DNA from: Liolophura sinensis
Lineage: Eukaryota; Mollusca; Polyplacophora; Chitonida; Chitonidae
Length of the DNA: 64,000 nt
Direction: 5' to 3'
Assembly (NCBI RefSeq): GCF_032854445.1
Contig: NC_088302.1
Span: 40,986,191-41,050,190, forward strand
The position numbers and the translations under genes were made by a program. Under the pieces are notes generated by a model. That model searched no databases and was not told the DNA's origin. It saw only the letters and a program-made list of their open reading frames with translations. Below, piece by piece: positions 15,401 to 63,052 of this stretch (the first letter of the stretch is position 1; each line of letters begins with the position of its first letter).

Positions 15401-15936
15401 CACAGGTCATCACCTCTCAGCACCTGCCCATAGAGCAGGAACAACAACAACAACAGCAAGTCCAACAGATACAGCATGTAAGTCGTTCGGAGACACCAAC
15501 CTCCCAGCACAGCTTGGTGACAGTGCCAGTGGCAACACGCCAGGTGCGCCAGGTCACCGGAGCGCACCTGGTACAGGAGCGCCCTATGTCACACCCATCT
15601 GCACAGGCGGTGCAGCACCATCACACCCAGATGACACCCGTTACCCATGTGCATCATCCTCATTCCCAGCAGCACCACACACAGCCCACCCATCTCCAGG
15701 CCACCCATCATGTCACTTACCCAGAGGTGACCTATCCTGATGGGGAGACAACCAAACAGATGGTGCTCATCCCCAGCATCGCCCCAGGCACAGAGGTGGT
15801 CAGTCCACAAGAGGAGCAATTCTTGGCTAAAGCGGAGCAAGCGGCCATTGAAAACATGGCCCAATATCAGCCCGGCAGCACTGGTTACACAGGCCTGCCT
15901 ATACTGCTACATCAAATCAATACGTCCAGTCAGTAA
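9393..15936 (+). CDS. C2H2 zinc-finger transcription factor with AT-hook-like motif
   Basis: Coding exons 9393-9440, 11783-13043, 13656-13812 and 14451-15936 give 983 residues; every junction keeps phase. The start ATG has good context (AACGATGG) and begins MAEDPKNMDLGDFESK. Next come an acidic stretch (EEEPEEDELQD) and an AT-hook-like KKRGRGRPPK near residue 128. About 14 fingers span residues 201-615, most with CX2C...HX3-5H. The second (CLTC...HQC) is imperfect and the last has CWC, only one residue between cysteines. HTGEKP linkers occur twice. Residues about 640-983 are Gln/His/Pro-rich without domains, with a QQQQQQ run near 818. Inferred role: nuclear DNA-binding regulator. I do not recognise the orthologue. 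Confidence 0.88.
9441..11782 (+). other. Zinc-finger gene first intron with a SINE (family B)
   Basis: 2.3 kb, AT-rich, with poly(A) near 10234-10252 and SINE 10761-11086. I see no further exon. Confidence 0.7.
10761..11086 (+). mobile_element. tRNA-derived SINE, second family (B)
   Basis: The head looks tRNA-like (CCCCAATGGTTAGAGCACTC, then TTGAAGTCGAGAGACCTGGG). Its 3' part is CAAGAAGACACACACCCAAT, then CATATGACTGAAAACCTGTT and AACATTAAACCCCAAGC. The same 3' part recurs at 42625-42846. It differs from family A in head and body. Confidence 0.7.
11783..13043 (+). CDS. Zinc-finger gene, exon 2 (N-terminus, AT-hook, fingers 1-8)
   Basis: Acceptor CTTGTTGCAG, donor CATACAG|GTAGCC; 420 codons + 1 nt. 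The open frame before 11783 and after 13043 is intronic read-through. Eight CX2C fingers lie between 12335 and 13043, the last ending RRIHTG at the splice. Confidence 0.9.
13044..13655 (+). other. Zinc-finger gene intron with a SINE fragment
   Basis: 612 nt with a reversed family A tail at 13262-13351; otherwise unremarkable. Confidence 0.75.
13262..13351 (-). mobile_element. SINE family A, 3' fragment
   Basis: ATTTATTTATTTGATTGATG, then ACGACGGCGGCCAGCATTAT and GGTGGGAGGAAAC. The tRNA head is missing, as in typical 5' truncation. Confidence 0.75.
13656..13812 (+). CDS. Zinc-finger gene, exon 3 (finger 9, start of finger 10)
   Basis: Acceptor GTTCACCAG, donor TTCAG|GTTTGT; 157 nt. It begins GT GAA AAA CCC, so the canonical HTGEKP linker is rebuilt across the splice. 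It encodes CSAC...H and YLCSLCGKAYF. Confidence 0.9.
13813..14450 (+). other. Zinc-finger gene intron
   Basis: 638 nt, AT-rich, with a C homopolymer near 14067-14078. Nothing else recognised. Confidence 0.75.
14451..15936 (+). CDS. Zinc-finger gene, terminal coding exon
   Basis: Acceptor TGTTTGCAG. The first A completes an Arg codon, giving FRRQALLRHQKYHTGEKP. It carries fingers 10-14 and then the low-complexity tail ending LLHQINTSSQ and TAA (15934-15936). The exon end is the first copy of the tandem array that follows. Confidence 0.9.
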
Positions 15937-16580
15937 CACATTGTATTAGCTTTTGTATGGTGTTCGTAAATACAGACAACTGAGTCATGTATGTAACAGG
16001 GCTTCCTGTACTGTAACACCTGATGAACATATCCAGTCAGTAACACACCATATAGACCTTTGTGCAGTGTAGATAAAAACACTGCATAGTCCTTTCGTGC
16101 AGTGTTTGTACATGTATATAACAGACCTGCTTATGCTGCTACACCAGATAAATACAGCCAGTCAGCAAGACACCGTATAGACTTTAGTGCAGTTTGTACA
16201 TACGGACAACAGAGAGGTGTATATAACAGACCTGCCTATGCTGCTACACCAGATAAATACATTCAGTCAGTCAGCCCCATATAGACTTTTGTGCAGTGGT
16301 TGTAAAATATAGACAAGTCACAACTGACGTGTAGCCCATAAAAGGCCTTCTCATACCGCCACACTTGATCAGTGCATCAAGCCAGTGAAAGATGGTGTTT
16401 GTGACTATAGACAACTGAGACATGTATATAACAGGCCCCCCTATACAATGTACTGTTGCACCGGATTGACGCATCAAGTCAGTAACACGGTGTACAATCT
16501 TTTGTGCAGTGTTTGTAAATACATGTATAGAGAATGAGACATGTTCATGACCGCTTACACTGCCACATGCACACCAACAA
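15889..16580 (+). repeat. Tandem array of about 105-bp units starting in the last codons of the zinc-finger gene
   Basis: Unit 0 is the gene itself: ACAGGCCTGCCTATACTGCT, then CCAGTCAGTAACACA with the stop codon. Diverged copies begin near 15996, 16121, 16226, 16334 and 16431, with a partial one to about 16580; spacing is 97-125 nt. Copies keep ACAGRCCTGCYTATGCTGCT, GATAAATAC and CAGTCAG. The array probably forms the start of the 3' UTR. Confidence 0.85.
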
Positions 16581-17051
16581 CTGTATATTGCAAGCAGAAT
16601 TCATTAACACACTTAAGTTGTGTTGACATTTATAATCCATGTTTATAATTGTTTTAAAAATACTTATACATAGTTATGTATCAAATTCTACAAATGAGCT
16701 TCAAAATCTCTGGGTCCCTTGAAACTCCAGGTAGCATGAATTTGAATACCATGTATGATTATCAAGCTTGGTCAATAATCTGATTCTAATAATCTGCTGT
16801 TATCAATGATGAATTATCAATTCACGCATACACATACGTAGGCTACCATTGTCACATGCTCTCAAATTGGTATACGATGAACTGCAATAATGTGTCCTTA
16901 AATATTTATATATTTACATATATCATATTAACAGGAATTGTAGATTAAATGTACTGCATATGTTTTATATAAAAGGAAGAATCAACTGACAAGAAGATCT
17001 ACAGTATGAACTATACTTCATCTTTTAGAAGTGCTATTCTGATTGAACACT

Positions 17052-17057
17052 AATAAA
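17052..17057 (+). terminator. Candidate poly(A) signal, zinc-finger gene
   Basis: AATAAA in plus orientation, about 1.1 kb after the stop, past the array. Use is inferred. Confidence 0.35.
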
Positions 17058-17683
17058 CACTGAATATATGTAATTCACTGCTATTGATAACATATTTGTT
17101 GCCTTTGTTGTTTAGACCAGTCCATAAGAAGATTGCCTTGTGTAGGGTTGGTTTATTTCTGTTAACCATATGATAATTTATATAAAGAACAAGACCGCAC
17201 AAAATTGTAGTATATGTAAACAATGCCAGCTAGAAAACTAAATCTAGTTTACACATATTTTGAGATGTTTTAAAAATACATGTAGAATTAATTGCATTCA
17301 GGTGTTTGAATTCTAAGGTGATCTTGATGGGAAATTTGATCAAACTGCCAGTGTTAGATACTCCTGTTACATCACATATTTTCTTCTATATATTCACCTA
17401 CAGGCACATTTTTTGAGCACTTTGGCGTCCTCAAAACAATGGCTACAGACATGGTTCACAAAAGCACACTATAGAATTCAAAGATGTAAATGCTTTTCTC
17501 TCTTGTCAAGAGAAAAAAAAATTACATATCAACTGCATCATTCACGTAGGAAACATACTTTGCTGTCGACAGGATAAGAATAATATGGTCACGCCTAAGC
17601 CCGCTTCAAATCCTACACACGCCCAGTGTCATCCTATACCTGATATTAAGATAGATTCGTCTCTTAATCCCAGCTAGTACTGA

Positions 17684-17714
17684 TAGTATATATATATATA
17701 TATATATATATATG
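17684..17714. repeat. TA microsatellite
   Basis: An uninterrupted TA run of about 30 nt. Confidence 0.9.
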
Positions 17715-18723
17715 GCCAGGTTATATAATGGTGAGCTTTATCATTGCCATGATTGATTGGTCTGACGTTGGGTTTGGCAATCAGAACAATCTTGGACTAA
17801 ACTAAACGTGTACGGCGCATGTCCATCGACCATGCACGTTACACACTGAGGCCTGTATAAGGGTAGGCCTACTCTCAAAACATTAAACTGTTAATTTTAG
17901 CAAAGTCTTTCGCCTGCGTGAGTGATGCTAGAATGTATTCTGATAACATTATTCTGTCAAATATAACATACAGGTATTCTATTGGGCTAATTCAATATAA
18001 AGATTCTATTAGACGAACACGATACTATGTGGTAATAACACATTCCAGCATCACTTGGACAACAGACGTTCTGTTAGAAATAACAGATTAATTTTTTGAT
18101 TGTAAATTTATTTATTTATTTTCTCACATATTTTAATCGGTTTGAGGAAATAGGCCTAAACGTACAACCTGTCTAGAACGCTAATGTGCTGTCAATAATT
18201 CTTATTATATAAATCATTCAGAGTTTTCTTGTAAATGTATAAGAGAAAAGACTCACTTTGAAAGGTATGACATTTTTAAAAGCTTCATGTATGCTTTTGT
18301 ACACGCGAGAGTTGCGTCTGTTTTTGTTGGTTTAAAGCTAAGATACATAGGCCTTTCGTATACTTGTACATGCACAGCGAATATGTAAGATTTGAGATTG
18401 ATAAATCATAAAGAAACACGTGCTCAAGTTGGAGATCGAGGAGAAAAAGTAAAATGTGACCATTCCTAAGAAAAATCACTTCCTGGTCAAACTGATTTGC
18501 ATGGGACCTGCATGTATTTGTTTGTACGTGTGATAGTTTTTGCATTGCTTGGCCGAGCTAACCTTCTGAACAAGATGCCTATGTATGATGGCATCATAAG
18601 TAGTCTCCCCTGGTATATAATTACCTGGGTGACAATAACCGCTAACCGATTCAAGTTTTTTGCTTCACTTTTGTTGTCTTGAATGTTAATAAATCAGTTT
18701 AGCAGTAACATTATACTGCTTAG

Positions 18724-18725
18724 CA

Positions 18726-18790
<65 letters not shown>
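18724..18790. repeat. Long TA microsatellite
   Basis: An uninterrupted TA run of about 65 nt; the YIYIYI ORF read across it is an artefact. Confidence 0.95.
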
Positions 18791-18795
<5 letters not shown>

Positions 18796-18933
18796 TCCAA
18801 AATATACTTCATGTGCATTTGATAGCATGCAAACATATCAGTATGACTTACAGTGAATGGTATTAGGAATGACTTGATATGTGCTACTTTTAGATAACCG
18901 GGCAATCTTCCGCTGTACAACTTCCCATTAATG

Positions 18934-19202
18934 TTTATTTATTTATTTGGTGTCTTACGCCGTACTCAAGAATATTTCACGTATACGACATTAAGATGGG
19001 AGGAAGCATTAAGGTGGGAGGAAACCGGGCAGAGCCCTGGGAAAACCCGCGATCATCCGCAGGTTGCTGGTAGACCTTGCCACGTACGGCCGGAGAGGAA
19101 GCCAGTCTGAACTGGACTTAACTCACAGTGACCGCATTGGTGAGAGGCTCCTGGGTCATTACGCTGCGCTAGCGCGCTAACCAACTGAGGCACGGAGACC
19201 CC
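18934..19202 (-). mobile_element. tRNA-derived SINE (family A), near full length
   Basis: The reverse complement shows the head (GGTCTCCGTGCCTCAGTTGG, GCGCGCTAGCGCAGCGTAAT) through to the tail. A short internal duplication (GGGAGGAAGCATTAAGGTGG) sits where other copies have GGCGGCCAGC. Confidence 0.85.
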
Positions 19203-20340
19203 GGCCCATTAATAAGGTCGCACGATGGAATGCATGCAGCTCCATTTTGTTTGGCTGTGGCTTTAAGTCACTAGGCGTGACAGGCATCTGGCGGTTGTAT
19301 CCCTGTCTGCGTCCGGTTACCGCTGGCTGTGCCCGTTTTCTTCTAACAATCAACATGATCTCCGTCGTGTATGTGTATGTACAAGTGATATATGCTTTAG
19401 ACTTTTGTCGACGTGTGTAAAGACGACTTGAAATACCAGTGCGATGATGAACACCGATGATAAACACGCATAACAAGCAAACAAATAAAATTCATTATAT
19501 TTAAGCAAAACACAGTGTATTACTCAATATACATAGTCCAACGACTGAAATTGCGCTTTATAAGCATTGCTGGAAGGAAGCTTTGATAGAGAGATCCAGG
19601 TCGTATATTAAGGTTTTTGATTATGAGACATGCATGGCTATAGAATTGTATGATAAATCATCTCTGATGGCTGTAACGCGTTACTTACCGACCATACACC
19701 TGGGACTGAAGCTGATATGCGAGAAGTACTGAAGCGTAAATGTAAAAACTAATCACATAACTAATCACAAACCCATAACATATCATAACTGATGGTGATT
19801 TAAACGAAATTCTTCTTAATCCTTCCAATACAGACATATCTAACATTAGAAAATCTTTGGAACGACACTGCTGCTGATTGATGAAGCAACTAGACCTGCC
19901 TGCCTATAATATCACTGCTACACCCATCACTTCCAACAAGCAGGGATTAAGAGTCAAATAGAGGAGCCAGGTCATAAAAACATCGCATAAATTCTCAATC
20001 AAATTTACTTTCAAAGAACATAACTCAAATACATAATTACGTTTATTAATTCCTGTAACAGTTCATTTATACCAAGACCTTTGGTCTGGCAAACATCAGA
20101 ATTATCCGCACTCTCCACGAAAACAACCCTTGTATACATGGATACATTTGTCAGATTAGCAAACATTTTCGAAACCAGAGAATAATTATTACCAGTATTC
20201 CCAGTCCTTTGGAATATTTTTTTTTCATTCTTGTGTATTTCCTTCTTCCTTAAAATGCAACAAATGTAACACCCATCATACATTCAAATCCTGGAACGGC
20301 TTCGAATTTTCCAAAAACTTATACAGATCTATTTCGCTCT

Positions 20341-20745
20341 GACCAGTAAAATGTTCGAATGTCTTGTATTTCCAATATAGATTTTCACCATGCATCTTCC
20401 CTCAAAACATTAATCCTCATCAACAAATGGCAAGCTCCATTTGGATTGCAACCTACTTCGGCCATGGATGACATTGGGTCCCGCATGCAGTTATATATAG
20501 GGTATGCATGTTTTAAACCATCTTTTCTCTCACTTTTATAAACGATCTCCAAACATGATGACATTCTAAATAACACAAAGCTCTTTGCCGATTTTATGTC
20601 CGTGTTGCATAAAGACCTCGTATTCCACAATGTTAATTGATCCTATATATAAGTACACTTGATATACATTTGATAACTGGGCAAAATCTTGGCTTGTTGG
20701 CTTCAATTCAACAAAGACAAAACTCCTTATATTTTCGAGACTTAT
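20341..20745 (+). pseudogene. Decayed non-LTR retrotransposon (LINE) reverse transcriptase
   Basis: Scattered pieces in shifting frames follow the order of jockey/CR1-type RT. SKMFECLVF comes first, then FINDLQ near 20533, then ILNNTKLFADFMSVLHKDL at about 20560-20620. NWAKSWLVGFNSTKTKLLIF follows at about 20675-20735. In active elements the third block reads FADD; here the second Asp is lost. Stops and frameshifts separate the pieces, so it is dead. Confidence 0.6.
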
Positions 20746-22828
20746 ACACAGAACAAGCTCCCATCAAATCCCAAACGTTACGATATATTTATAGGAGAAA
20801 TGAATTGACCAACACACAGAAACACTGCTTAGGTATCTTTATAATAAAACAGCAATGATATAACAGGATAACAGGGACAGGATTGTGTAAAATCTCCTTG
20901 AAAGTCTAATTTTGAGCTATATGCATGCATGCATGTTTATAGTTCTTATATAACCACATGATTAAAAGACGTACCATGCTTGGAGATAATGTCAAAAGTT
21001 ATGGGTCCATGTGCCCTTACAGAAAATACGTACGTCGTTTCATGGGACAAAATATCCAAAGTCCAAGTCTGTGAATTAAGAAGACATTCACAAGGACAAC
21101 TGAGCGAATCATTAAGTGTTGTAAGCATCGTTAAATCCATAGCAAACCTATATGCATGCAACAAACAAACAAAAACTGGTAATTATTGTAGGTCTATTAA
21201 GTCCTACAGACATTATCTGTTCACCCAGGCAATAATAAAAGGCCTATATATGCAAAAGAAAGTTTCCACGCATGTGGACAGCGTTTCAAATTTTCAGCAA
21301 GTTTTCAAGGGCTTTCCTGAAATTCGTAAACATGTAGTTTTTGCGACTCTGTACGGATTTTAGCTGACGAACAAGATGTTTTAGCTATAGGCATTGTGAG
21401 CTTCCACTATATGAATCGGCTGTCGCGTTAAGTCAGGAAATTTTTCAGGCATCTTGATGAGGGACGGTGCTTACCTGCAAGCTGTGCCTGTGGTTTCCTC
21501 AACCCGTAAACCCGACAGCCGTCATATGAACGGTATACTTAGTGAAATATTCCTCAGTGCGGCGTAGAAATATAGGGAGCACGTTACGTGGCTCAGTGCA
21601 TTCGTGATAACTTCGAGTTTTCAACTGCCAAGAGTTCAATACCAGTCTTCGATCGACACTGAATTCATGTGTACATGTGAGCGGGCGGTGACGGGTAGGT
21701 TAAGTTCTTATGCTTTCCAAGTGCAAGGATATACAATGTACGGGATCAATGCCCCTTGGAGAGGGAATTTAGGCGAACCTGCTCTCACCGCTGTTCATGG
21801 TTTGGAATTTAATTTCTGGTAATGAGTATATAATAACGAAAATATCTGTCAGAGTTGCCAAAGGTCGATTAATACATGCATGCTCCCCAAAAAATCAAAA
21901 TGGAAAAAGCAGATATAGGAATTTTCGTTGGCATGATGTTTTCAGTGTACATTTCTGGTATGGGATTTTTCTTTCAACCGAAAAACGGCCATATAATCAT
22001 GCGTATACAATGTCTAAAATCTACCACAGAAAAGTAGAAACGGAATCCTGATATCAGCATAAACTTCCCCACCCCCGTCACACATGTAGCTGGATGAAGA
22101 AATGTGATTGTGTATACAGACTGCCTATCTTGAGATAATACTGATGGCAAGACATAAACTGGGATGCAACGACTGTTTCCACAAGGCACATGTATTCATG
22201 CCGTACAGGCAGAATAGCGTTTTACGTCCACATAATCTATAAAATTATACACTTACAAACTTTGCATGTATAGACGGTTCCACAAAGACATTTATGCATG
22301 CTTTAATAATAATACTACATGTAAAAAGATTTTCACCGTTACGCATGAAAGCAAGAAATATACCTGAATTGCTTTCTTTACTTAGCCACTGCGTGCAACA
22401 ATCATGCATATCAATTAATAAGTAACACATTAACTGTACAATCCATGTGTAAGTTAAGGCGCATGCATGATGTGTCTGCTAAATTTATAGATGAAGTATG
22501 CCCGATGACGTTCCTCACTCGAAAACTTTGAATTTTATGGCAGTTCATATTTTGCACGACTTCCATTAGCTTAAGACATGGGTAACTTTACAAGAAGTTA
22601 AATACACCCCACAACTCGACCATGCAGCTTTAACCATGATTTTCACTACACGAAAAAATATACTCTGAAATCAAATTACTTAGTATAATTCCACATCCTA
22701 TATGCAAAAACACACCTTTCTCAAACTGCTTGCATGGCTTTCTTAACTCGTTTTGCGTTATTAAGCTTCGCATGCACTTGTGTCGCATCATATTATTTTG
22801 GTTATGTTTTTGGTGGCGTTTGTTTGTA

Positions 22829-22898
22829 CACAGCTTGACCTTGGGCACAACTTGACCATGGGCATAGTTTGACCTTGGGCACAGCTTGACCTTGGGCC
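22829..22898. repeat. Short tandem repeat, about 20-bp unit, four copies
   Basis: CAGCTTGACCTTGGGCA-type units with small differences (ACCTTGGGC or ACCATGGGC). Confidence 0.75.
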
Positions 22899-23370
22899 AA
22901 ACACCGATTAATCCATCCATATTTATTGGTGGTGATCCGTACCTAGAAATTTTGGAACGATTTTTCATGCATGCACCACTGCAAGACTGAACAGATATGC
23001 ATATTTCTTTTCTAATTTACTTTATATAAGAATGTTATGATACCATCCATTAAATTAATATACCCCTATATTTTGTGGGCCCTTGTAATCTAAGTGCAAT
23101 CTATAGTCTTTGACCATGCAGGGAGTTTGTTATGTATAGCACGTATGCTTATATACAGGCTTACTCAACACCGTCTTAATCTCTTATGTTGACGGATATA
23201 GCCTACCCATAGGCCCTCATCAAGTGGTTTAATTTGTCAGAAATATAAATCTGTCAAAGCACTGTGGGTATTTGTTTTCGCTTATGCCAAGTTCATAAAT
23301 CAAGAAAAAAAAAAACCAATGAAAAAGCATGCATATTCGGCGTAAAGAAAAATCATCACAGAAGATCTAA

Positions 23371-23436
23371 GGGCAGAGCCCGGAGGTAACCCACGACCAT
23401 CCGCAACTTGATGGCAGACCTTCCCACGTACGCTGG
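23371..23436 (-). mobile_element. SINE family A, central fragment
   Basis: GGGCAGAGCCCGGAGGTAAC then CGACCATCCGCAACTTG and GACCTTCCCACGTACG. Head and tail are absent. Confidence 0.6.
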
Positions 23437-23815
23437 TATATAGGAGCCTGTATGATACATTATCTCTATGTATGTTGTATATCATGTGCAAAACTATATT
23501 TTCTGGACGGTTACGCACTTCATCACATTGCGAATTAAGTCTTACCTTCTGATGTGTAATCTACCCACTGGAATATAGGCCTATAATAGTGGGAATAACT
23601 GACAGTTTATCAACAATTGTGAGAACTACTTGTTTAGCAGAGATGACACAGCAAGGCCCGGATGTGCTATTGACCTGCGTGGAGGTTAGCTTTGTGATCG
23701 CTTGTCAAACGTGGCTCGCTCGCATCTTCTCTTCCTTAACGACATTACCATAAAACGTCGGAGAAATTTTCGGAAACGTAAGTAATTTTAAGTCTTGTTG
23801 TTCCTTACCAGGTGC

Positions 23816-23879
23816 ATGGAATATGATGGTGTCTGTATGTGTCGTGAAACACACATTGAAACCGTTGGCATATCAACGG
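23816..23879 (+). CDS. Candidate first coding exon of the ATP8B-type flippase
   Basis: A short ORF from ATG (preceded by an in-frame TAA) encodes MEYDGVCMCRETHIETVGIS + T and ends ACGG|GTAAGTACG, a strong donor. One extra G is left over, which fits the phase of the flippase exon at 53474 and would give a Glu codon. The sequence just upstream (23640-23780) is CpG-richer, with another strong donor at 23778 (AAAC|GTAAGTAAT), as in a first-exon region. The phase could match by chance one time in three and the peptide is not recognisable. Confidence 0.3.
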
Positions 23880-24321
23880 GTAAGTACGCGGATAGCAACA
23901 ACAACAACAACAACAGCGTCAAGCTAAACGATACATGTTTAGCAGCATACTGGTATCAGATGTGTGTCGTCTTCTCAGTGTGGGGCTGTTTGAAGTTTTC
24001 ATTTGAGGCTGCCAGTGTCCGAAATGGTCATTTTTCAGAGCAAGAACAGTACTGAGGGTTATTCATTGTTGGTTCATCTGGATGTGCAATTTAGTCTGAA
24101 TTGTCTGACTAAAACTTACATTTACAGCAGATATTGTGATAACCCTGTTAAGGAAACACTGCAGTTCTAGTCAGAAGTGGCTCTATTTAGAATAAGTTTC
24201 CAAGCAATGCTACTAACGCTAAATTACTCACCTCATCTTCATGTTTCACCTACATTCAAAGACAAGTTACACTTAACTTGGCCGTGGATTTCTTGGCTTT
24301 GCTCTTTTATAGGGACAATAC

Positions 24322-24510
24322 TTCAAGTCCAGCTCATGCTGGCTTCCTCTCCGGCCGTAAGTGGGACGGTCTGCCAACAACCTGCAGATGGTCGTGGGTT
24401 TCCCCCGGGCTCTGCCTGGTTTCCTCCCACCATAATGCTGGCCGTCATCGTATAAGCAAAATATTCTTGTGTACGGCGTAAAACACCAATCAAATAAATA
24501 AATAAATAAA
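24322..24510 (+). mobile_element. SINE family A lacking its tRNA head
   Basis: It starts at TTCAAGTCCAGCTCATGCTG and keeps the body and tail to CAAATAAATAAATAAATAAA. Confidence 0.8.
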
Positions 24511-24570
24511 TTTATAGAGCCTATGAGAGACACAAGTTCACGGGAGTTCCTATTGGAGTCCCTCGCGAAA

Positions 24571-44218: not shown

Positions 44219-44460
44219 ATGTCAGTAAACTTATGATGTCAGTGCACTTATAGTGATGTTAAGTGCATATAGAGTGATGTTAATGCTTGCATAATGATGT
44301 TAATGGGCAGTAATGGGCACAGTAATGCTAGTGCATCTATAGTTATGTCAGTGACCATATATAGTGATGTCAGTGCACAAAGTGATGTCAGTGCACAAAG
44401 TGATATCAGTGCACAAAGTGATGTTAGTGGATATATGGTGATGTTAATGCACATGTGTAA
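43975..44460. repeat. Diverged tandem repeats with an embedded TA run
   Basis: Many GTGATGTCAGTGCACAAA-like units of about 17-32 nt. A TA microsatellite lies at about 44191-44214. Confidence 0.75.
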
Positions 44461-44481
44461 AAAGTCATGGCGTTTTTTTTT

Positions 44482-44740
44482 TTTATTTGATTGGTGTTTT
44501 ATGCTGTACACAAGAATATTTCACTTATTCGACGGCAGCCAGCATTATGGTGGGAGGAAACCAGGCAGAGCCCGGGGAAAACCCACAACCATCCGCAAGT
44601 TGTTGGCAGACCTTCCCATGTACAGCCGGAGAGGAAGACAGCATGAGCTGGACTTGAACTCACAGCGATCGCATTGATGAGAGGCTTCTGGGTCATTAAA
44701 CTGCACTAGCGCGCTAACCAACTAAGCCATGGAGGCCCCC
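44482..44740 (-). mobile_element. tRNA-derived SINE (family A), near full length
   Basis: The reverse complement runs from the GGGGGCCTCCATGGCTTAGT head to the AAACACCAATCAAATAAA tail, with a poly(A) end. Confidence 0.88.
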
Positions 44741-45742: not shown

Positions 45743-45780
45743 TACATATATATATGTGTATATTTATACACATATATGTA
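45743..45780. repeat. Near-perfect AT palindrome
   Basis: TACATATATATATGTGTATA faces TATACACATATATGTA around a short TTTA centre. Confidence 0.7.
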
Positions 45781-47889: not shown

Positions 47890-48620
47890 TTTACTCTCTG
47901 TATCAGTGGGGTGGAATTTACTCTCTATATCAGTGGGGTGGAATTTGCTCTCTGTATCAGTGGGGTGGAATTTGCTCTCTATATCAGTGGGGTGGTATTT
48001 GCTCTCTGTATCAGTGGGGTGGAATTTACTCTCTATATCAGTGGGGTGGAATTTGCTCTCTATATCAGTGGGGTGGAATTTACTCTCTATATCAGTGGGG
48101 TGGAATTTACTGTCTATATCAGTGGGGTGGAATTTGCTCTCTATATCAGTGGGATGGAATTTACTCTCTGTATCAGTGGGGTGGAATTTACTCTCTGTAT
48201 CAGTGGGGTGGAATTTACTCTCTGTATCAGTGGGGTGGAATTTGCTCTCTATATCAGTGGGGTGGTATTTGCTCTCTATATAAGTGGGGTGGAATTTACT
48301 CTCTGTATCAGTGGGGTGGAATTTACTCTCTGTATCAGTGGGGTGGAATTTACTCTCTATATCAGTGGGGTGGAATTTACTCTCTGTATCAGTGGGGTGG
48401 AATTTACTCTCTGTATCAGTGGGGTGGAATTTACTCTCTGTATCAGTGGGGTGGAATTTACTCTCTCTATCAGTGGGGTGGAATTTACTCTCTGTATCAG
48501 TGGGGTGGAATTTACTCTCTATATCAGTGGGGTGGAATTTACTCTCTATATCAGTGGGGTGGAATTTACTCTCTGTATCAGTGGGGTGGAATTTACTCTC
48601 TCTATCAGTGGGGTGGAATT
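47890..48620. repeat. 27-bp minisatellite, about 27 copies
   Basis: Units TTTACTCTCTGTATCAGTGG + GGTGGAA with few variants (TAT or TGT, ACT or GCT). As 27 is a multiple of 3 and the unit lacks stops, all three plus frames stay open for hundreds of bases. This explains the repetitive ORFs across it. Confidence 0.97.
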
Positions 48621-53532: not shown

Positions 53533-56500
53533 GTAAGTTGATTATTAATTTTGTGTACAGTTACATGTTTGTATGCATATTTGTGTGTGTTTTAAGTCCC
53601 ACTGAATAGACAAGTGAATGTTATTCATTCTAAAGACTGAATGGAAACTGACTTGGGCTCATTTTATTAATTGAAAGCTTTCACAACAATAGTCTATCCT
53701 TGTACATGGGCATGCAGTCATTAGGTGAACACGAAGTGTCAGTTCACTCTGTTTCTTTTTGGAGCAGGAATGCTGTCTGTTATCAGAATGAATCTTTTTT
53801 ACAAATGCAAGCCCAACAACCCCCTCCCCCCCACCCTCCCTCCCCCCCAAAGATAACCCTATTCTTTGTATGGTGACTGGTAAGAGCAAGGTGTTTATGG
53901 GGTAGTCACTGACTCTCTACATACATCCTGTTCTATCTGTCATGTCTGTAGTCCCCTTATCGTTTTGAGGGTAGGAGAAATTGATTTACAAGGCCATTAT
54001 AGACACAGACTATGGAATATGTCATACTTAGGCTCTGTACTTTACAAGGAGGGTTATAGTACAGCTTTGTAAGGCTTCAGCATAGCCTGATGAAAATGCC
54101 TGTCCCTTGGGAATGTCTCTAATCTTGGGGCTAGCATGTAATTTGCATATAATCTCAAACTTGTTACCCAGCTTCATCTTACAAGCTGTGTAGGCTTCTT
54201 AATAGAAGCTACCAAAATGAAACTGTATAGCTGCAGATGTATATTTGTAACTTACAGTGTCATTTTAGAAATCTTTTCTTTGTCTAAGTCACAGAAATGC
54301 CATTGTATTAATTGTCATTGGGGATTATAAATAGATTTTTAACAATTAATTCACATGAACTGATTGATTTCTGAGTGCTGTTAACCATAATCTAACTGTT
54401 CAGAGTTAGGGTCTATAGGTGGATGGTGATAGGTTGATGGTTAGAATTATTATGGAACGTGATCTACATGCACATACACTGTGGCTGCTGTAAGCCAGTT
54501 ACATATTTCAAGTGGTTATAATGTCTTTCGGGGCCTCCATGGCCGAGGGGGCTACCACGTCAGCACAGTGCATGTGGGAAGGCCTGCCAGCAACTTCAGG
54601 AAGGCTGTGTGTTTCCCGTGGGGTCTGCCAGGTTTCCACCTGTTATAATGCTGGCTGCTGTCGTACAAATGAAATATTCTTAAGTATGGTGTTAAACACC
54701 AACCAAGTAAATGAAGTAAATATAATGCCTCTCTTGCATTCAAGGATTGTTAAATTTACTTGTAATCATATTGACTTACATGCAGAGAGGTACACCACAT
54801 AATTGCTCTGGCTCCTCTGCTTGTCTCTGTTTTATCTGCTGCTTATAGACATTCAGTCTGAACGAAAGATACATGTATAGTTAATAGAATTATTTCATAT
54901 TACTTCTTGGAGAGTCCCTGTTTTTACTTGGGGTCCAGCTAGTGGTTGGCTTGCTCACAAGACTAAGTACAGGTACATGTAGTCTTACATGAAGTTTGTA
55001 TGACATAATGTGCAATCCAGTGCAGACAATCCTGTCTCTTCCGCCCATAAAACATGGACAGTGAATGCATTTATAAATGATTTTTCCACCATAATGCTGG
55101 TTGCCGTCATATAAGTGAAATATTCTTGAATATGGCGTTAAACACCGATCAAACAAGCGGACAAATTATTGATTGATTATGTCTCAATACAACTGTGGCA
55201 GTATTGCAGCCATATTGTGTTTAGAAGTTGTCAGAAAAGTTAATGAGTACGGCGTTTCACATCAATAAACAATTGATATGTGTTGTATCTCACAGTTTGT
55301 ATGACATATTTCTTTGTTTCACAGAGCAATCACATCAAGACCTCCAAATACAACATCCTCACCTTCCTGCCAAAGAACTTGTTTGAACAGTTCCAGAGAA
55401 TTGCCAATGCATATTTTCTGGGACTCCTTATACTCCAGGTAAGGTGTCTTGTGTCTGCTGCTCTTGTAGGATTGTATTGGAGTCAGACACACAGCATGGA
55501 TTCATAAATTATATATGTTAAGAGAAGAACATGTTATTGCAGACACAATTGGCAGCAACTATACCACTCCATCATTATATTGAACACGCTGAATCATTAT
55601 AACATACTATTCAATATTTATACCACAGTCACGGTGGAGTTTTTTCTCAAATTGCTGTCCAAGTTGCTGTTGAGCGCATAATTTGGGAAGTTTTAGTGAA
55701 GAACACCATCAGAGTTTGCATCTCCTTTGCACTAAGATGCCTGGCTGTCATGTTATTATTCAATGAAAACTTCAAAATTATGCAGATCTGGCTTACAATC
55801 AACATCATTATCACACTGTCCGTTAGTCTATTAGGCTGTCAGTACGTGGCACACTATTTCTGACATGAAGGGTACATCTGTCCCCAAACAGCAGTGTTGT
55901 AATGAGGAAGAAGCTTACATATATGTAGTTTTGTAGGTTCAATAAAAGGGTGACTTCCCTTTGTGGCATTTACAACTCTGTCAGCAACACATTATGACAT
56001 AGTAGTGCACTTATGGTATTTTATAGGACAATATACAATATACACCATGTACATGTACATGTCACAGAAAGTGCCCCAAAAAAGTGTGACTTATTTAAGT
56101 TTACATTAGTAGCCTTGGATATTTGTAACTGCAAATAATTGATTAATTAATAATTTGTGGCATTGTTCCAAAAGTTCTATACTAAAAGCTGAATTATCAG
56201 TGTTCATTTGTATTGAAAGGCCAAGAGCACTTAACTACGCATTGATTCAAAGTCACAAAGCGTTGTCGTAGCAACACAACTCAGAACCACACGTTTGGCA
56301 ATGTATATTTGATCAGTAATGCATATTTCTTTTTCACTGTATTTATTGTTCAAGAATAGCATGTAGTATGTTGTTTCTGTTATAAAATCAGTCCATGATA
56401 GAATATTAAACCACTGAGGAGACTAAAATGTTTAGTATATACCTATTATGGACATTATTAAAGGGAATGATGCAGATAATTACAGTAGGGCTGTAATTTT

Positions 56501-59500
56501 ATTGAAATGTTATACCTAGAGTATACATGTACATATGTTGACTTGCTCTTCACTATATATGAACAGTGCTCCTTACAATGACCAATATTGCAGTGTGCAG
56601 AGCCGATTGACATAGTTGTTCCCTTGGCTTTTGTGTTGAAAATTTCATTGGAGTGAATGCAGTTGTTTTGGGAGTTAACTGTATTACATATACTTGTATA
56701 TACCACATATCGTGTGAAAAAATGTTAAATGGGGTATTCATAACTGAACTGTTGCATTTCAGGTAAAATTAGGCTGTGAGGAGAAGGGCATTATGGCAAT
56801 TTTATTTTTCATGATATCATGATGTAGAAATTGATATGACTGGTCATGATTTGCTTGCCTTTTGTATTTTTAACTTGGTGATGTACATGTACTTTGTTGA
56901 CTGCTTATAATTGGTCATAGTGCACAGTGTTATAGTGATGTGATGTGGTAGTTGAAGTGACGTGTTGCCGCTGTGTGGATGATACGCTGTCTGGTAGCAA
57001 AACAGTTAGATACATTAGAGTCTGTCAAATACTGTATCCCATCACTTATGTCTGTTATCCTCTCCATGCAGCCACCAGGTGACAATGATGGGGCACACTA
57101 TTTGATAGATTGCGTTTAAGGACACATGAAAAAGTAATACAGAACAGAAAGTATGATTTTGAGGAAAATGAAGATAGATACACAAGCAAAAAATGAGAAC
57201 ATTTTTTACGTTTTTAGCCATGTTTTATAGTTTTTAACAACCCCTGTATTTTATGCATATTTTCTGTCATTGGTCGGAAATATTTAGAAATGACATCTTT
57301 GATGAACAGACTGGGAACAATTTAACGCTCCCAATTCAAACTCTCCCCCAACAGAGCTATTTTGACAGCTATCGTCACCACAGCAGGCTACTTAATTTTT
57401 AGATTAACTGTTAAAGGAGAAGAAAACATAAAAATGATGACAAAATCAGATGAAAGAGCGTCAAAACTTATTTGCAAATATGGTCTTTAATATTTTTTTA
57501 TTTTTTTTTATTGTTGTTTATATAGGAACATATGCATTTAACCTAAATTATGATAATATTTATAAACATATTAAAAATATAAATTAGATCCAAATTGAGT
57601 TTTGATACATTTGCTAACTGAAAGGAACAAATTCTAGTGCAAAAATATTTATTAAACCTGTGTTACATCCCCATTTATGACATTATTAAATAAAGACTAT
57701 AAACACCAAAAGGTGGTCCTAAATACCCACCATACAAAAATTATTTTCAAGTGTCTTTTCTCCTTAAGGAAAAATCAGAAAAAATATTGAAGACCACATT
57801 TAGGAATAATAACTTTTCACACTCTTTCATGTGAACTTTATGTCATTTTTATGTTTTCTCTACCATTAACTTTTATACATGTTGGACAGCATACTAAATA
57901 TACACCGTATTAAGAAATACAAACCAAGCATTTCCTGTATCCTTCAACAAAGAAAAATATCTCCTATATAGTTAAGTTACCTGCCATGGAGATTGTGCAG
58001 GTTATTATAAACTATTGCTGAGGATAACTTTGTCTGGAAAAGCGTTGTACATGGAGCATATTCTGTCAACAGAGGCCACTTTTTCAAAGCAGAGTACAAC
58101 ATTTTTTGTCATGTATTTGTCATACGATATTTTGTTCGTCACAATTAATGGACCATTATTCTGTATGTGCAATATCGTAGAAGTATGACATCTTTGTGAA
58201 AGTGGCCGCTGACATCTAATTTACAGAGGAATCAAAATGCTCTGGATGCTAAAGCAGTGTACACATCACATAGCTGAACTGTTTGCTCTTTCTGCCTTGC
58301 GACTTCTGGTTAGACGTCTTCCTTGTGCACATGTGAAAAATTGCACTTGAATTAAAATTACGTGATAAAAAAATCGGATTTGTCCATAAGTCGTAAGGAG
58401 CAAAGCAAGTGAGATTACGCATGCATAGGTTGGCTCTCGCTCACACTTTATCATCCACAGAAGGAGTTTTGTGCAGCTGCATTCAGTGACCTAGGCACTA
58501 TTATGCTTCAGTGTGATGTCATGACTGTGAGCTCAGTACAAGTATGCTGCTGTATTGACACTGTGTCCAGAGGTTGATTGTGTGCGTTTCATCAGGTAGA
58601 CATGCTAAAAGTTAGAATAGTACATGTAAAAATGAAGTTGGCATCAAAGGATCAGCCATCAAAAACTGTCCAAGAAAATGGCTTTACTTTTAAGAATTTT
58701 TCCATTGAGTTCTAAACATTTGAAATATGAAGTTAGTGGTGGCTCATGGGGATTATGGATTCCCATGTAAGCCCAAGTGATGACATGTGGCATTTTTTTG
58801 CAACTGCATTCTCTAGTAAAGCATTTAGTTTCTACATTTGATGGATGTGTGTTTGATCTGTACTGAGTGTACTGACTAAACACCACAAAACAAGCTATTT
58901 TGAAACAGAAACTTTCATGTAATGTCACTTAATGCTCTCACCTTGTTGTTGTGTCCGGTCTAATGCTTTAAATGTAGCTGACAACTTGTGCAGAAAAGTA
59001 AAGAAAAATTTAGCGTATGCATTAAGCCTTAAGAAGTGGTTGTGGGTTTCCTCCCACTGTAGTCCTGCCGCTGTCGTATAAGTGAAACATTCTTGAGTAC
59101 TGTGCAAAACACCAAACAAGAAAAAAACAAAAAATAGATCAAATTTTTCTGGCATAGTTTTTAATGGCCATTCTCTTGATGTATAAAACTTCACTTTTGT
59201 ATTTACTGTTCGTTTAACCTAGCCTTTTTATGTGATCACAGTTGTTCTTATCGAAAGTGAAAGTTGAAGCTTGTACTGCATTGTTTGCATGGTGTGTTAA
59301 TTTCATGTTAATGCATTCAATGCATTTTTATTATTGTCTTTCTTGAATGCTGATTGTAGCTGATCCCACCAATCAGTTCATTGGAACCTGTCACCACCAT
59401 CTTCCCCCTATTTCTGGTGCTCTCTATATCCGCCATTAAGGATGCAATCGACGACATCGTAAGTGGATATAGTTGTGACCGCAAGCAATGTGACATGATT

Positions 59501-62500
59501 ATGATTCTGTTGACAGCTCATCATAGTCGCTCCCTCAGCACCCTCATCTTGTCATGTTCTCATCTTCGCCAGTCACTTTCACTTTTATAGATGTTGTTGA
59601 GCCTTGACCTAGTTTGCATTTTTAGCACCAGTTTCATGTTTCATAGTCAAATTTGCATTTGTTAACAACACCTTACTTACTCTTTCTGATATCTGTGTTT
59701 TATTTTCAGTTCATTTCATTCTCTGTGTTTGCTTCTGTGTTGTGTTATTATAATTTGCTACTTGTTTTATTGTTATCTTTTAGGTTAAAAACATCACTCA
59801 TTTAAACATTGTTTTTTTGCACTGGTGAAGGCCTGTAACTGTCCATATTCTTGGATTGCCATGCCCTCTATCAAGTACTTGTTTCGGATAACTGCTAAAC
59901 ACTTAACACATATTGCTCAGAATGCTGCATTTTTGTGTTGAGCATGTGTGGCAAAAGTTTTTGCATCTTGGAATGTTGTTTTTAGTTTTGAAATTACAGC
60001 ATGGAACAAGTATGATGAAGCAAATTACCCAGTATGTACATGAAGTTGTTTTGTACATAAGGTTGTTTTGTACTTGGGTTGGCTATCACATGGCAAGATT
60101 TGCTAATATTCTACATAAGGCTGTACTTTCACTAGTCCTGGAGTCAGCTGCTAACTTGTTGGTGTGAGGCACCAATCTAGGTATGGACAAAGCACAGGCC
60201 TAACCTGCAACCTCCAAACCCCTCTCAGTTGTACGTGGGATTTTTGTCAACGGGGTCACCCCCTGTCTCTGTCTCTCTCTCTCTTCCTGTCCGCCTCCCC
60301 CTGATGCCCTGGAGTACAGCTAGTTCCTTGGATCTCGTCACTGACACCTTTTGCCACCTCCATCCCTCTGGTAGCTGTGCTCGCAGTCACCGCCATTAAG
60401 GATGGTTACGATGACTTAGTGAGTTTCTAATTACTTAATTAACATACTAAATATAAGATACATTTAATTACTTAGTTAACATATTAAATGAGCATTATGT
60501 GTACAACCATGCGCTGTGCATACACTGTAGTTGTATATTTTACTTTCAATCTAAAGGCCATTAATTCAGGTATCAGATTCTTGTCAGCACAACTTTTTTT
60601 ACATGAAAATTTTTATAAAGCAAATGTTTATAATTATTAAAGTGTCAAAGCATTTTACCTACATTGCAAGAGCCTAGAAATTGGAAACATTTTAATAGTT
60701 CAACAAAACTAATACTTTTCTTCTGTCTTATTCAATGCATTGTATAGAAATGAAAAATCCACTCAGGTGTTTTAAAATGTTTATGTAATATGTAAAGTAC
60801 ATACCACAGTCTCAGTGTGTATTTAGTTTAACTAAAAGTTTAAATTACATGATGAACACAATTCATTATGAATTATTGTATTGATAAATAGATGCAAACA
60901 TGCTGAACATTTAGAGACCTGTTTGCAAATTAAGTTCATTCTGTAAATGAAATACCTGTACCAGCACACAAGTAGTTTTCAAAATATTTGAAATTACCAT
61001 TTTAATAAAATGTACATGTAGGAATGGTTAACATTAGATAGATTAACATAGTGTTGCAGCAGGAGATCTAAGTTATTGACGATTTGTAAACTACATGTAT
61101 GTGTAGACGTTGAAGTTTACAGGATAGTGTAATTGTAGCTTGAGTCTTAGTTAATGTTTACATTGGTTCATCCACTGGGCTTCAGCTTTTATTGGTCCTC
61201 AGCTTGGTGGTATTTAAGGAAGGGAGCAAGGATGAGTTTTTTCTTTTTTTTGGTGTGGTGTTGATTAAACATGGCACAGACTTCTCACATAACTCTTACA
61301 GATCATGTTAATATTACCATTTCGTGTGAATTATTAATACTCAAACTTTAATGAAGTGTTTAGCGATACAAAGAAATCCCCTGTAACTTTTTAACTCTCA
61401 AATATTAATAATAACCTTATATATTTAATATAATTTCTAATCTGTTGAAGTATCTTTTATACAATATGCAGTATGAATTTGTAGGTGTTTTCATATAAGT
61501 GAACAAAATCTAAATCATAAAAGTTAAGATTTAAAAAAAATGTCATGTCTTATTTGTGGTCTGGTACATGGTTTTACTTTGTGCTGTTTTGTTGTCTGTG
61601 TCATCAGCAAAGGCATCGTAGTGATAACCAGGTCAATAGCCGGCTATCCTCCGTCCTCCGCAATGGCCAGATGGTGGAGGAACGCTGGGACAGCGTGGTC
61701 GTCGGCGACATCATCCGCATGGAGAGCAACCAGTTTGTGGCTGTAAGTATGCTTATTGTCTGACTTAAAGTAAATGGGTTTTATCTGTAAATAGAAGACA
61801 AATTGTCCGCAGATAATAGTCACCAGGTTGCAGCTTGAGATCCATCATCAGTTAAATGAGTAGGCAGCCTCATAATCCACATGGAGAGTAGTCAGTAGGC
61901 TGATTGTAGGCTCTCCCACTGTCCACATGGAGAATAGTGAGTGGGCAGATTGTGAGCTCTCCCATTATCCACACAGAGAGAAGTCAATGGGCACATTGTA
62001 GGCTCTCCCATCATCTACACAGAGAGTAATCAGTAGGCAGATTGTAGCCTCTCCCATCATCCACACAGAAAGTAGTCTGTAAGCAGATTGCAGGCTCTCC
62101 CGTCATCTACACAGAGAGTAATCAGTAGGCAGATTGTAGGCTCTCCCATCATCCACACAGAAAGTAGTCTGTAAGCAGATTGCAAGCTCTCCCGTCATCT
62201 ACACAGAGAGTAATCAGTAGGCAGATTGTAGGCTCTCCCATCATCCACACAGAAAGTAGTCTGTAAGCAGATTGCAGGCTCTCCCATCATCCACACAGAA
62301 AGTAGTCTGTAAGCAGATTGCAGGCTCTCCCATCATCCACACAGAGAGTAGTCAGTAGGCAGATTGTAGGCTCTCCCGTCATCCACACAGATGGTAGTCA
62401 GTAGGCAGATTGTAGGCTCTCCCGTCATGCACACAGATGGTAGTCAGTAGGCAGATTGTAGGCTCTCTCGTCATCCACACAGATGGTAGTCAGTAGGCAA

Positions 62501-62767
62501 ATTGTGACAGCACATTATTCACATGGAATGTAATTAAGCCACGTTCACATTTTGTCTCCATGGTGAGTTTTAAGATCGTACTTTAGGTTCACATTGGCTC
62601 TCTTCATTCTAAACAATATTGTAAATGACACTTTACACGACACTTTATTTGTCACCAGACTGATAAAAAGTTTGTTCTCTGCTCTGTGTGTTAAAGGCTG
62701 ATCTGTACCTCCTGTCTACCAGTGAACCCAACAGTCTGTGTTATATAGAAACAGCTGAGTTAGATGG
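53474..62767 (+). CDS. ATP8B: Class I P4-ATPase (phospholipid flippase), ATP8B type, N-terminal part
   Basis: Certain exons are 53474-53532, 55325-55438, 59360-59458 or 60320-60418 (alternatives), 61608-61742 and 62697-62767. All are GT-AG and phase-matched. They encode the cytosolic N-terminal lead-in, M1 ([11 protein letters not shown]), M2 from either alternative exon, and the start of the actuator domain ([29 protein letters not shown], then [10 protein letters not shown]). The window ends just before the ET of the P4 DGET motif. Family knowledge: P4-ATPases move phospholipids from the outer to the cytosolic leaflet, usually with a CDC50/TMEM30 subunit. [12 protein letters not shown]...NLFEQF and SDNQVN resemble vertebrate ATP8B2/8B4 more than ATP8A or ATP11. 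The phosphorylation site and M3-M10 lie to the right. Confidence 0.93.
54533..54721 (+). mobile_element. SINE family A with an internal deletion
   Basis: Head GGGCCTCCATGGCCGAGGGG and GCACAGTGC run directly into CATGTGGGAAGGCC. The B-box region is lost while the tail is present. Confidence 0.78.
55081..55158 (+). mobile_element. SINE family A, 3' tail
   Basis: TTTCCACCATAATGCTGGTT then GTGAAATATTCTTGAATATG and AAACACCGATCAAACAA. Confidence 0.8.
55325..55438 (+). CDS. ATP8B: ATP8B exon: pre-M1 signature and M1
   Basis: Acceptor TTTCACAG, donor CTCCAG|GTAAGG. 38 codons in phase 0: [20 protein letters not shown] then [23 protein letters not shown]...F.P.NLFEQF is a P4-ATPase signature. Confidence 0.95.
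57411..57869. mobile_element. MITE-like element with inverted ends and TTAA flanks (copy 2)
   Basis: Left TTAA then AGGAGAAGAAAACATAAAAA; right end reversed TTAA then TGGTAGAGAAAACATAAAAA. It matches copy 1 at 6072-6678 across both arms and shared inner blocks (CTAGTGCAAA, AAAGGTGGTCC, AAATACCCA), and is about 150 nt shorter. Confidence 0.75.
58072..58210. mobile_element. Foldback element with GGCCACTTT ends
   Basis: Left GAGGCCACTTTTTCAAAG, right end reversed GCGGCCACTTTCACAAAG. Inner GTCATACGATATT and reversed GTCATACTTCTACGATATT also pair. No ORF. Confidence 0.6.
59026..59125 (+). mobile_element. SINE family A, 3' tail
   Basis: GGTTGTGGGTTTCCTCCCAC, GCCGCTGTCGTATAAGTGAA, CATTCTTGAGTACTGTG. 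Confidence 0.75.
59360..59458 (+). CDS. ATP8B: ATP8B alternative exon A: start of M2
   Basis: Acceptor TGATTGTAG, donor GACATC|GTAAGT. 99 nt in phase 0: [20 protein letters not shown] then [13 protein letters not shown]. It aligns without gaps to exon B (18 of 33 identical). It starts at the M1-M2 turn and covers M2 with the conserved AIKD..DD end. Confidence 0.93.
59459..60319 (+). other. Spacer between the two alternative flippase exons
   Basis: 861 nt. It ends in a long pyrimidine tract (about 60260-60300, CTCTCTCTCTCT). Open frames within it have no protein features. Confidence 0.75.
60320..60418 (+). CDS. ATP8B: ATP8B alternative exon B: start of M2
   Basis: Acceptor GGAGTACAG, donor GACTTA|GTGAGT. 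99 nt in phase 0: [20 protein letters not shown] then [13 protein letters not shown]. Same length and phase as exon A. Both together would duplicate M2 without shifting frame, so mutually exclusive use is likely. Confidence 0.92.
60419..61607 (+). other. Flippase intron
   Basis: 1.2 kb, AT-rich. No repeat family or exon recognised. Confidence 0.8.
61608..61742 (+). CDS. ATP8B: ATP8B exon: start of the actuator domain
   Basis: Acceptor GTGTCATCAG, donor GCT|GTAAGT. 45 codons in phase 0: [20 protein letters not shown] then [20 protein letters not shown] and QFVA. Its last 30 nt resemble the unit of the minisatellite that follows. Confidence 0.94.
61804..62512 (+). repeat. 46-bp minisatellite downstream of the actuator exon
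   Basis: About 14 units of CATCCACACAGAGAGTAGTC + AGTAGGCAGATTGTAGGCTC + TCCCAT, partly in a 92-bp two-unit register (GAGAGTAATCAGTAGG alternating with GAAAGTAGTCTGTAAG). More decayed units lie at 61804-61874. The first clear unit has ATCCACATGGAGAG, against ATCCGCATGGAGAG in the exon. Confidence 0.9.
62697..62767 (+). CDS. ATP8B: ATP8B exon: actuator domain up to the DGET motif
   Basis: Acceptor TTAAAG, donor GATGG|GTGAGT. 71 nt: [20 protein letters not shown] then ELD + GG. The next exon (outside) should supply the rest of Gly and ET. The acceptor has a poor pyrimidine tract, but the protein match is decisive. Confidence 0.93.
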
Positions 62768-63052
62768 GTGAGTATTACATGAAAACATCAGAGTTAGGTG
62801 AGTGAATATTAGAGTTAGAGTTAGGTGAGTGAGTATTACATAGAAATATCTGAGTTAGATAGGTGCGTAATACACAGAAATGGCTGAGTTAGATAGGTGA
62901 GTATTATACAGAATCGGCTGAGTTAGATAGGTGAGGATTACACAGAATCGGCTGAGTTAGATAGGTGAGTATTACACAGAAACATATGAGTTAGATGGAT
63001 GAGTATTACACAGAAACATATGAGCTAGATGGGTTAGTATTACATACACTAC
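62745..63052 (+). repeat. 34-bp minisatellite that copies an exon end and its splice donor
   Basis: Unit 0 is exon sequence plus donor: ATAGAAACAGCTGAGTTAGA + TGG|GTGAGTATTACAT. About eight more units follow, e.g. CTGAGTTAGATAGGTGAGTA. Most keep a GGTGAG donor core. Confidence 0.93.

Follow-up and report, generated by a model that had tools for sequence, protein, structure and literature searches.

Minisatellite-like tandem duplications of exon/intron boundaries have been described in amphioxus genes (Adh3, troponin C, the globins BflGb6 and BflGb9, and PGBD5) under the name of mirages (PMC3087553, PMC3902484). As the relevant passages of those two papers describe them, the units are 10-160 bp long, many of them contain splice signals, and both 5' and 3' exon boundaries are affected; some mirages are reported to be unstable, with splicing undisturbed. 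The stretch analysed here, referred to as the window, is 64,000 nucleotides of the chiton Liolophura sinensis. An earlier note on this DNA had proposed that three arrays in two genes begin at the 3' ends of coding exons, and knew of no described name for such a phenomenon. The name existed already. The chiton arrays share the anatomy given in the amphioxus passages, ie boundary-spanning units, splice signals and involvement of both boundaries, and are probably of the mirage kind, with array A standing apart by definition.

Arrays in the flippase and zinc-finger genes

The features of the window are collected in Table 1. The first unit of array C (62738-62779) is the end of a flippase exon with its donor, and seven copies lie within 62783-63045. 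The alignment score was 54, against a maximum of 29 in 1000 shuffles. TRF found that the array runs on beyond the window, with 24 copies of a 34-bp unit at 63998-64824 (C8:41050188-41051014). A genome DNA search with unit C, in which common words are skipped, gave six matches, all of them inside C8:41048890-41051178, ie only in the array's own intron region. Array C is confirmed as a real array of exon end plus donor, and its tandem units span an exon/intron boundary as those of mirages do. The same gene, which is ATP8B-like, contains a further donor array (donor at 75525) and an acceptor array with its copies upstream (at 84897), both in extended coordinates. Pfam E1-E2_ATPase matched the open reading frame of the first flippase exon in the table with E=0.003, below the curated cut-off, and the 23-aa piece of the next exon gave no Pfam match on its own.

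Table 1. Exons and arrays located in the window
Feature	Position	Strand	Basis
Last coding exon, C2H2 zinc-finger gene	14451..15936	+	Open frame to 15936, Pfam zf-C2H2; start by eye from AG
Array A, first unit = coding end + stop	15889..16505	+	Local alignments, shuffles, genome DNA search
P4-ATPase (ATP8B-like) exon	61608..61742	+	Start by eye, donor GTAAGT at 61743, Pfam match on open reading frame
Array B	61871..62505	+	46-bp unit x 13.8; weak likeness to exon end 61709-61734, without donor
Next flippase exon	62697..62767	+	Sequence, open frame; donor GTGAGT at 62768
Array C, first unit = exon end + donor	62738..63045	+	TRF, local alignments, shuffles, genome search

The first unit of array A (15889-15936) comprises the final 45 coding bases of the zinc-finger gene and its stop codon (TAA, 15934-15936), and the copies lie in the 3' region. 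Locally aligned, 15889-15956 matches degenerate copies, whole or in part, at 15996-16047, 16121-16188, 16226-16271 and 16474-16505. The score of 57, where 1000 dinucleotide shuffles reached 28 at most, confirms array A as a real exon-end array. The genome DNA search, again skipping common words, placed it only at its own position; a dispersed satellite or transposon as the source of A and C was set aside on these searches. The boundary involved is a stop codon and not a splice site, so array A works like a mirage yet falls outside the definition. Its polarity, ie an origin from the exon end, is unproven.

Array B resembles the exon ending at 61742 in a single 26-bp match, in which 21 bases agree and the donor is not included; about 128 bp free of any copy lie between the exon end and the array. 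Its score was reached by 4 of 1000 shuffles when the query was exon tail plus donor, by none of 1000 for the exon tail alone, and by 2 of the 1595 further 66-mers taken from the window. It has no unit with exon end and donor such as mirages have, and was dropped as a proven case; its derivation from the exon end is suggestive only. Of the three arrays claimed earlier, A and C therefore stand, having beaten 1000 shuffles each, and B does not. The further claim that copies lie downstream only holds for A and C and fails in general, since upstream copies occur at acceptors, in the flippase gene and elsewhere. Among the other arrays reported in the window, TRF recovered the 27-, 22- and 197-bp ones but no 60-bp array.

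Frequency of arrays at donors and acceptors

The 222 Liolophura coding exons sampled came from kinase (52 of 138 matches listed, at most 300 bp, two qualifying ones missing), kinesin (89 of 132 matches listed, taken in listing order, at most 300 bp, at least one missing) and myosin (81 of 81 matches listed); matches to PF16212 and PF07714 are left out of these counts. The P values are approximate, as exons from the same gene do not count as independent observations. The donor query was extended up to 90 bases into the exon. An initial comparison scored any copy lying downstream, and exon ends showed no excess over intronic 60-mers (12/133 versus 42/399). That comparison was replaced by counts of first units, with upstream and downstream copies separated, because it counted inner units too.

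After checking by hand, the donor fell within the first unit of an array downstream in 15 of the 222 exons (17 raw hits), ie about 7%, or 1 in 15. Flanking non-coding points, taken from the first sample only, lay in a first unit in 63 of 4330 cases (1.45%, bootstrap 0.9-2.1%), and the excess of donors over introns is roughly 3.5-5-fold. The claim that arrays are tied to exon 3' ends beyond the chance of one window is thus upheld, and exon ends do not behave as random intronic sites. Counted by TRF, donors gave 13/222 against 1.4%, or 11/222 less two cases rejected by hand (L056 and L154, which have doubtful donor calls and were kept in the TRF-based count). A third candidate, the L007 exon C1:26642195, was rejected as a mirage because its copies are alternative exons; the accepted cases include two with weakly predicted donors (L146 and L105). 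At scores of at least 30 both the strand-reversed control proposed earlier and the wrong-side control gave 0/222. At the laxer score of 26 the donor reverse complement gave 2/222, and the acceptor end against the downstream intron 1/222.

A replicate, for which 7-10% of donors had been written down beforehand, gave 6/89 before checking and 5/89 after, slightly below expectation and above background (P=0.01). First-unit hits in the first sample, before any checking, became rarer with distance from the donor, from 13/133 at 0 and +20 to 3-7% at +40 to +120 and 0-4% at +140 to +520. Acceptors fell within the last unit of an array upstream in 5/222 exons (about 2%, not filtered by hand), and the background last-unit rate was 2.0% by TRF and 121/4330 among the flanking points. 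Donors exceeded acceptors by 15 to 5 (P=0.04), by 15 to 6 (P=0.08) or, with raw hits, by 17 to 5 (P=0.02). Acceptor-side arrays with upstream copies were also found outside the flippase gene. In the sample, as in mirages, units span the boundary (15/222 donors) and contain splice signals, and both exon boundaries are affected (5/222 acceptors, together with the acceptor array at 84897).

Some 8 to 90 bases of exon end were copied with the donor in the 15 accepted cases. Over the 17 raw hits the site is included in 72 copies, 68 of which keep GT, and the 9-base donor site was no less alike than the remainder of the unit (92 versus 91%). GC content was slightly higher at mirage donors (0.443 versus 0.415, P=0.04). 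Donor-spanning TRF arrays had a period below 28 in 0 of 17 cases, compared with 52 of 94 others (Fisher), but a period filter was left unused because array length biases this result.

Origin of the arrays

We think it probable that the arrays are mirage-type minisatellites, formed by tandem duplication across the downstream edge of an exon, followed by minisatellite expansion, and tolerated. A segment of about 30-140 bp straddling that edge (the donor, or the stop codon in array A) would be duplicated in tandem and then expanded as an ordinary minisatellite; that duplication preceded expansion is the presumed order. The first copy would remain joined to the exon, so that coding and splicing continue, and the remaining copies would land in the intron or 3' UTR, where they are seen only downstream and leave coding unchanged. 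The direction would thus follow largely from geometry, since coding is kept by whichever copy remains attached to the exon. Tolerance is expected because the first donor should still serve, and it is probably the only one used. The copies, their donor motifs and their excess over flanking non-coding sequence are observations; the exon as source is a reading of them, a conserved domain being encoded in the sampled genes and the flippase, and for array A it is unproven. The donor excess probably reflects tolerance and a conserved anchor, perhaps with a local mutational bias.

If selection alone were at work, duplications would be uniform and near exons only those straddling donors would survive. 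Acceptor copies would be purged because they duplicate the branch point and pyrimidine tract as well, and old arrays would stay recognisable through the conserved exon. The acceptor rate, which lies near the background last-unit rate while donors lie above theirs, agrees with this, and the intact donors within the copies imply that donor copies are tolerated. Part of the donor excess can be put down to selection, through tolerated duplications and the exon as conserved anchor. Tolerance cannot, however, lift donors past the intronic rate: a pure chance-plus-tolerance model predicts that donors are hit no more often than introns, unlike the data. The anchor effect should be two-fold or so at most, and the pooled data are higher. 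Against a doubled background 15/222 gives P=0.002, while the replicate alone is not above it (5/89, P=0.12). Since the pooled donors exceed even the doubled background, something beyond chance plus tolerance may be needed, and we give selection alone a little less than an even chance. The opposite reading makes exon 3' ends mutational hot spots, at which tandem duplications start through a process linked to transcription or splicing (R-loop repair, transcription-replication conflict or breakage at the exon-intron step). It draws on the excess over flanking sequence, the predominance of donors over acceptors, the fall with distance and the slightly higher GC content of mirage donors. GC skew, our sole probe for the R-loops suggested earlier, was nevertheless the same at the 15 mirage donors and the 207 others (0.076 versus 0.071, P=0.72), which lends R-loops no support; arrays are present deep in introns and at acceptors too, and selection can produce a similar bias. 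We regard the hot-spot process as rather unlikely, and doubt equally that chiton donors are true hot spots of tandem duplication, with about one donor in fifteen carrying an array of intact decoy donors.

Chance resemblance of unrelated minisatellites lying beside exons could apply to array B, and in its favour about one-tenth of the sampled intronic 60-mers are followed by a copy. Against it, the exon tail of array B alone beat 1000 of 1000 shuffles. For A and C coincidence is refuted by 1000 of 1000 shuffles, and together with the empty control orientations at scores of at least 30 this makes it a very improbable account of the arrays. Duplication of whole exons, giving mutually exclusive exons, is suggested by the rejected L007 case, which has two exon-like copies downstream, one of them itself a listed match with the same domain positions. 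The 15 accepted cases copy exon-end bases and the donor instead, and exon duplication as the general explanation is scarcely credible.

Comparison with known systems

If mirage-type duplication is accepted, a phenomenon described in amphioxus genes is now seen in a second, distant phylum, with a rate and controls. Behind about 7% of the sampled coding exons lie repeats of the exon's own end with its donor, in many cases several of them and almost perfect. Should splicing ignore the copies, they would provide a natural test of the spliceosome's choice among near-identical donors; should donors be hot spots, the arrays would bear on intron growth and on new introns arising through tandem duplication. 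In the open literature searched no mollusc mirage was found, and passages dealing with the introns of earthworm metallothionein (PMC12783039) and of gastropod hemocyanin (PMC7931591) contain no exon-edge arrays.

Compared with the mirages in the amphioxus passages, the chiton case is a mollusc, its frequency is given with controls, donor sides predominate and one array involves a stop codon. The chiton arrays are known from the sequence of one assembly. The final exon of the amphioxus opsin Bl_op8 has a unit of an intronic satellite as its beginning (PMC5802833); there, as in the chiton, a unit of the adjoining intron's array forms the exon edge. That example is a single case on the acceptor side, and the passage describing it does not use the mirage name. 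In human segmental duplications internal tandem repeats or minisatellites expand at exon-intron boundaries, according to the passage in PMC2812944, and give rise, in young paralogs, to new introns or altered exons, whereas the chiton arrays lie within introns after conserved exons. In the system of PMC4974935 the duplicated segment likewise runs across an intron-exon boundary and brings splice signals with it; the chiton copies sit inside the intron.

Exon-end arrays in the window and the flippase gene

The earlier note had claimed three tandem arrays beginning at coding-exon 3' ends, of which arrays A and C were confirmed. Array A, at the end of the zinc-finger gene, also takes in some bases past the stop codon, and its first three copies lie at spacings of 107, 125 and 105 bp. 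Its score of 57 was reached by none of 1000 dinucleotide shuffles (maximum 28). Array C repeats the end of the 71-base flippase exon, donor included, seven times within 263 bases, and again none of 1000 shuffles reached the score. A second block of array C, with 24 copies of a 34-bp unit by TRF and 21 places at a score of at least 40, lies in the same intron about 950 bases further on, outside the window. A DNA search gave six matches to the array C sequence, all within one interval and nowhere else. The relation of array B to its exon end is open: 21 of 26 bases of its first unit match the exon end, the donor is not included, and about 128 copy-free bases lie between exon and array. Its score was reached by 4 of 1000 shuffles when the query was the exon tail plus donor, by none with the exon tail alone, and by 2 of 1595 other 66-mers.

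Past the window, a further flippase exon carries a donor-type array and another an acceptor array, each unit of which consists of a pyrimidine tract, AG and eight exon bases. Two more arrays were observed in this gene; the 54-bp unit of one has a tRNA-like look, which we take to be a SINE head.

Positions of arrays and repeats (plain numbers are window coordinates, continued past its end as x, where the position on contig C8 is 40986190 + x)
Feature	Position	Unit
Array A	15889-15936 (stop 15934-15936), copies down to 16505	45 last coding bases and stop, recurring at four places
Array B	61871-62505	46 bp
Array C, flippase exon	62697-62767, donor 62768	34 bp (TRF)
Array C, all DNA matches	C8:41048890-41051178	
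Flippase exon, donor-type array	exon end 75524	
Flippase exon, acceptor array	exon start 84897	40 bases
3.6-kb array in flippase intron (locus L101)	C8:41063906-41067510	66 bp, 55 copies
Array shortly past another flippase exon (L101)	C8:41069223-41069716	54 bp
27-bp array	47890-48620	27 bp, 27 copies
Translated stretch GEEASMSWT	4194-4439, 24323-24511	
Translated stretch GEEDSMSWT	44448-44657	

The assembly comprises 632 contigs (609,464,459 bases). The Pfam-backed genes within the window are a PHR-domain gene, a WD40 gene with a SOCS-box match slightly below the cut-off, the C2H2 zinc-finger gene and the 5' part of the P4-ATPase flippase gene. The peptide stretch common to three places in the window points to a short dispersed element, most likely a SINE. 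The unit of the 27-bp array being a multiple of three, its frames stay open for 247-265 codons on either strand and need not be genes. In a mitochondrial stretch translated with code 5, COX1 was named by search; nad3, nad2, cox2 and atp6 are presumably alongside it, all on one strand. Contig G000:C99 (108,685 bp) has seven COX1 matches spaced about 15.5 kb apart, which suggests a mitochondrial concatemer joined head to tail, probably produced by the assembly.

Rates at donors and acceptors

The first sample consisted of 133 exons from domain matches (81 of the 81 listed for myosin head, 52 of the 138 listed for kinase). Donors were predicted from consensus, and the 60-mer across each was compared with the following 500 bases. 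At a score of at least 30, 12/133 donors had a copy, 5' ends had one upstream in 4/133, and reverse-complement and wrong-side controls had none (0/133). Of the intronic 60-mers, 42/399 were copied further downstream, so that taken naively donors show no excess. This comparison includes inner array units. Restricting the count to first units, which have a copy downstream and no copy on the upstream side, gave 11/133 donors against 41/2979 intronic points; the mirror count of last units gave 4/133 acceptors against 80/2979. Along a profile the first-unit rate was 13/133 at the donor itself, 3 to 7% between +40 and +120, and 0 to 4% between +140 and +520; the last-unit rate stayed level, at 3 to 5%, over the stretch that runs from 240 bases ahead of the match start to 20 bases past it.

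For the replicate (89 of the 132 listed kinesin-motor exons; window 270, score 30) the expectation, fixed before fetching, was 7-10% of donors and 3-4% of acceptors. Before hand-checking 6/89 donors and 1/89 acceptors were positive, both slightly below expectation. Pooled under these settings, 17/222 donors and 5/222 acceptors were positive; the four control orientations gave 0/222, and three matches in total at score 26. The hand-check accepted 15 donors (10/133 and 5/89), loci L056 and L154 being left out as doubtful. The background first-unit rate, from flanking non-coding sequence of the first sample only, was 63/4330 points (1.45%, bootstrap 0.9-2.1%); the window's own was 61/3149. Exon 3' ends were thus first units more often than non-coding points, as the earlier note had proposed: 15/222 exceeds 1.45% (P=1e-6) and double that rate (P=0.002), P values being only approximate since exons from the same gene are not independent observations. 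The replicate alone exceeded 1.45% (P=0.01), and did not exceed double that rate (P=0.12). With hand-filtering applied to donors only, donors outnumbered acceptors 15 to 5 (P=0.04; raw 17 to 5, P=0.02), or 15 to 6 (P=0.08) with the borderline acceptor L022 (score 28). By TRF arrays the counts were 13/222 donors (11 without the doubtful pair) and 5/222 acceptors, with flanking points at 1.4% (first unit) and 2.0% (last unit). The donor excess over flanking sequence is 4.7-fold by alignment and 3.5- to 4.2-fold by TRF. The idea that copies lie only downstream held for arrays A and C and failed at acceptors, where copies lie upstream.

Anatomy and possible origin

In the accepted arrays the TRF period or copy spacing ranges from about 31 to 140 bases, and what is copied is the donor together with about 8 to 90 bases of the exon. 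At L081, where the spacing is about 66, two TRF runs returned 67 and 197, the latter three times the spacing. Among the 17 raw donors, GT is kept in 68/72 copies covering the site, and identity to the original is 92% at the site and 91% in the rest of the unit, which gives no indication of decoy donors being either removed or favoured. Across 78 arrays with TRF periods of 26-200 bp (window and fetched loci, 350,367 bases), periods cluster near 31-34, 55-67, 90-97 and 124-130 (resultant 0.46 at 32.25 bp; jitter null 95% 0.25). Higher-order repeats account for some of the long periods, but 9/10 units of 62-67 bp are without significant internal repeat.

This anatomy suggests that a donor-spanning segment is duplicated and that the first copy stays where it was. 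Provided splicing uses the donor of that copy, the mRNA would be unchanged and the remaining copies would be intron, which would place copies on the downstream side of exon 3' ends and, at acceptors, on the upstream side of exon 5' ends. Units would afterwards be added and lost by ordinary minisatellite turnover. For exons encoding a conserved domain (myosin, kinase, kinesin, flippase) the exon itself may be regarded as the source; for array A it is a candidate source. Tolerance alone cannot account for the donor excess over flanking sequence, and a conserved anchor would yield a two-fold excess at most. Local mutational bias is a possible cause; GC skew gave no hint of one, being alike at mirage and other donors (0.076 and 0.071, P=0.72), and GC content was slightly higher at mirage donors (0.443 against 0.415, P=0.04).

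Relation to mirages

The earlier note knew of no name for such arrays; one exists, the mirages of amphioxus, minisatellite-like duplications of exon/intron boundaries. In the parts of PMC3087553 consulted their mechanism is called unclear and they are proposed as a route to new introns. Portions of other papers add the amphioxus genes PGBD5 and troponin C (PMC3902484), an amphioxus opsin whose last exon starts as one unit of an intronic satellite (PMC5802833), and minisatellites at human exon-intron boundaries (PMC2812944). Literature searches found no mollusc mirage, which is no proof of absence. The chiton arrays belong to the mirage kind, in a phylum new so far as those searches reach; here their rate is measured against controls, and it is the donor excess that deserves further attention.
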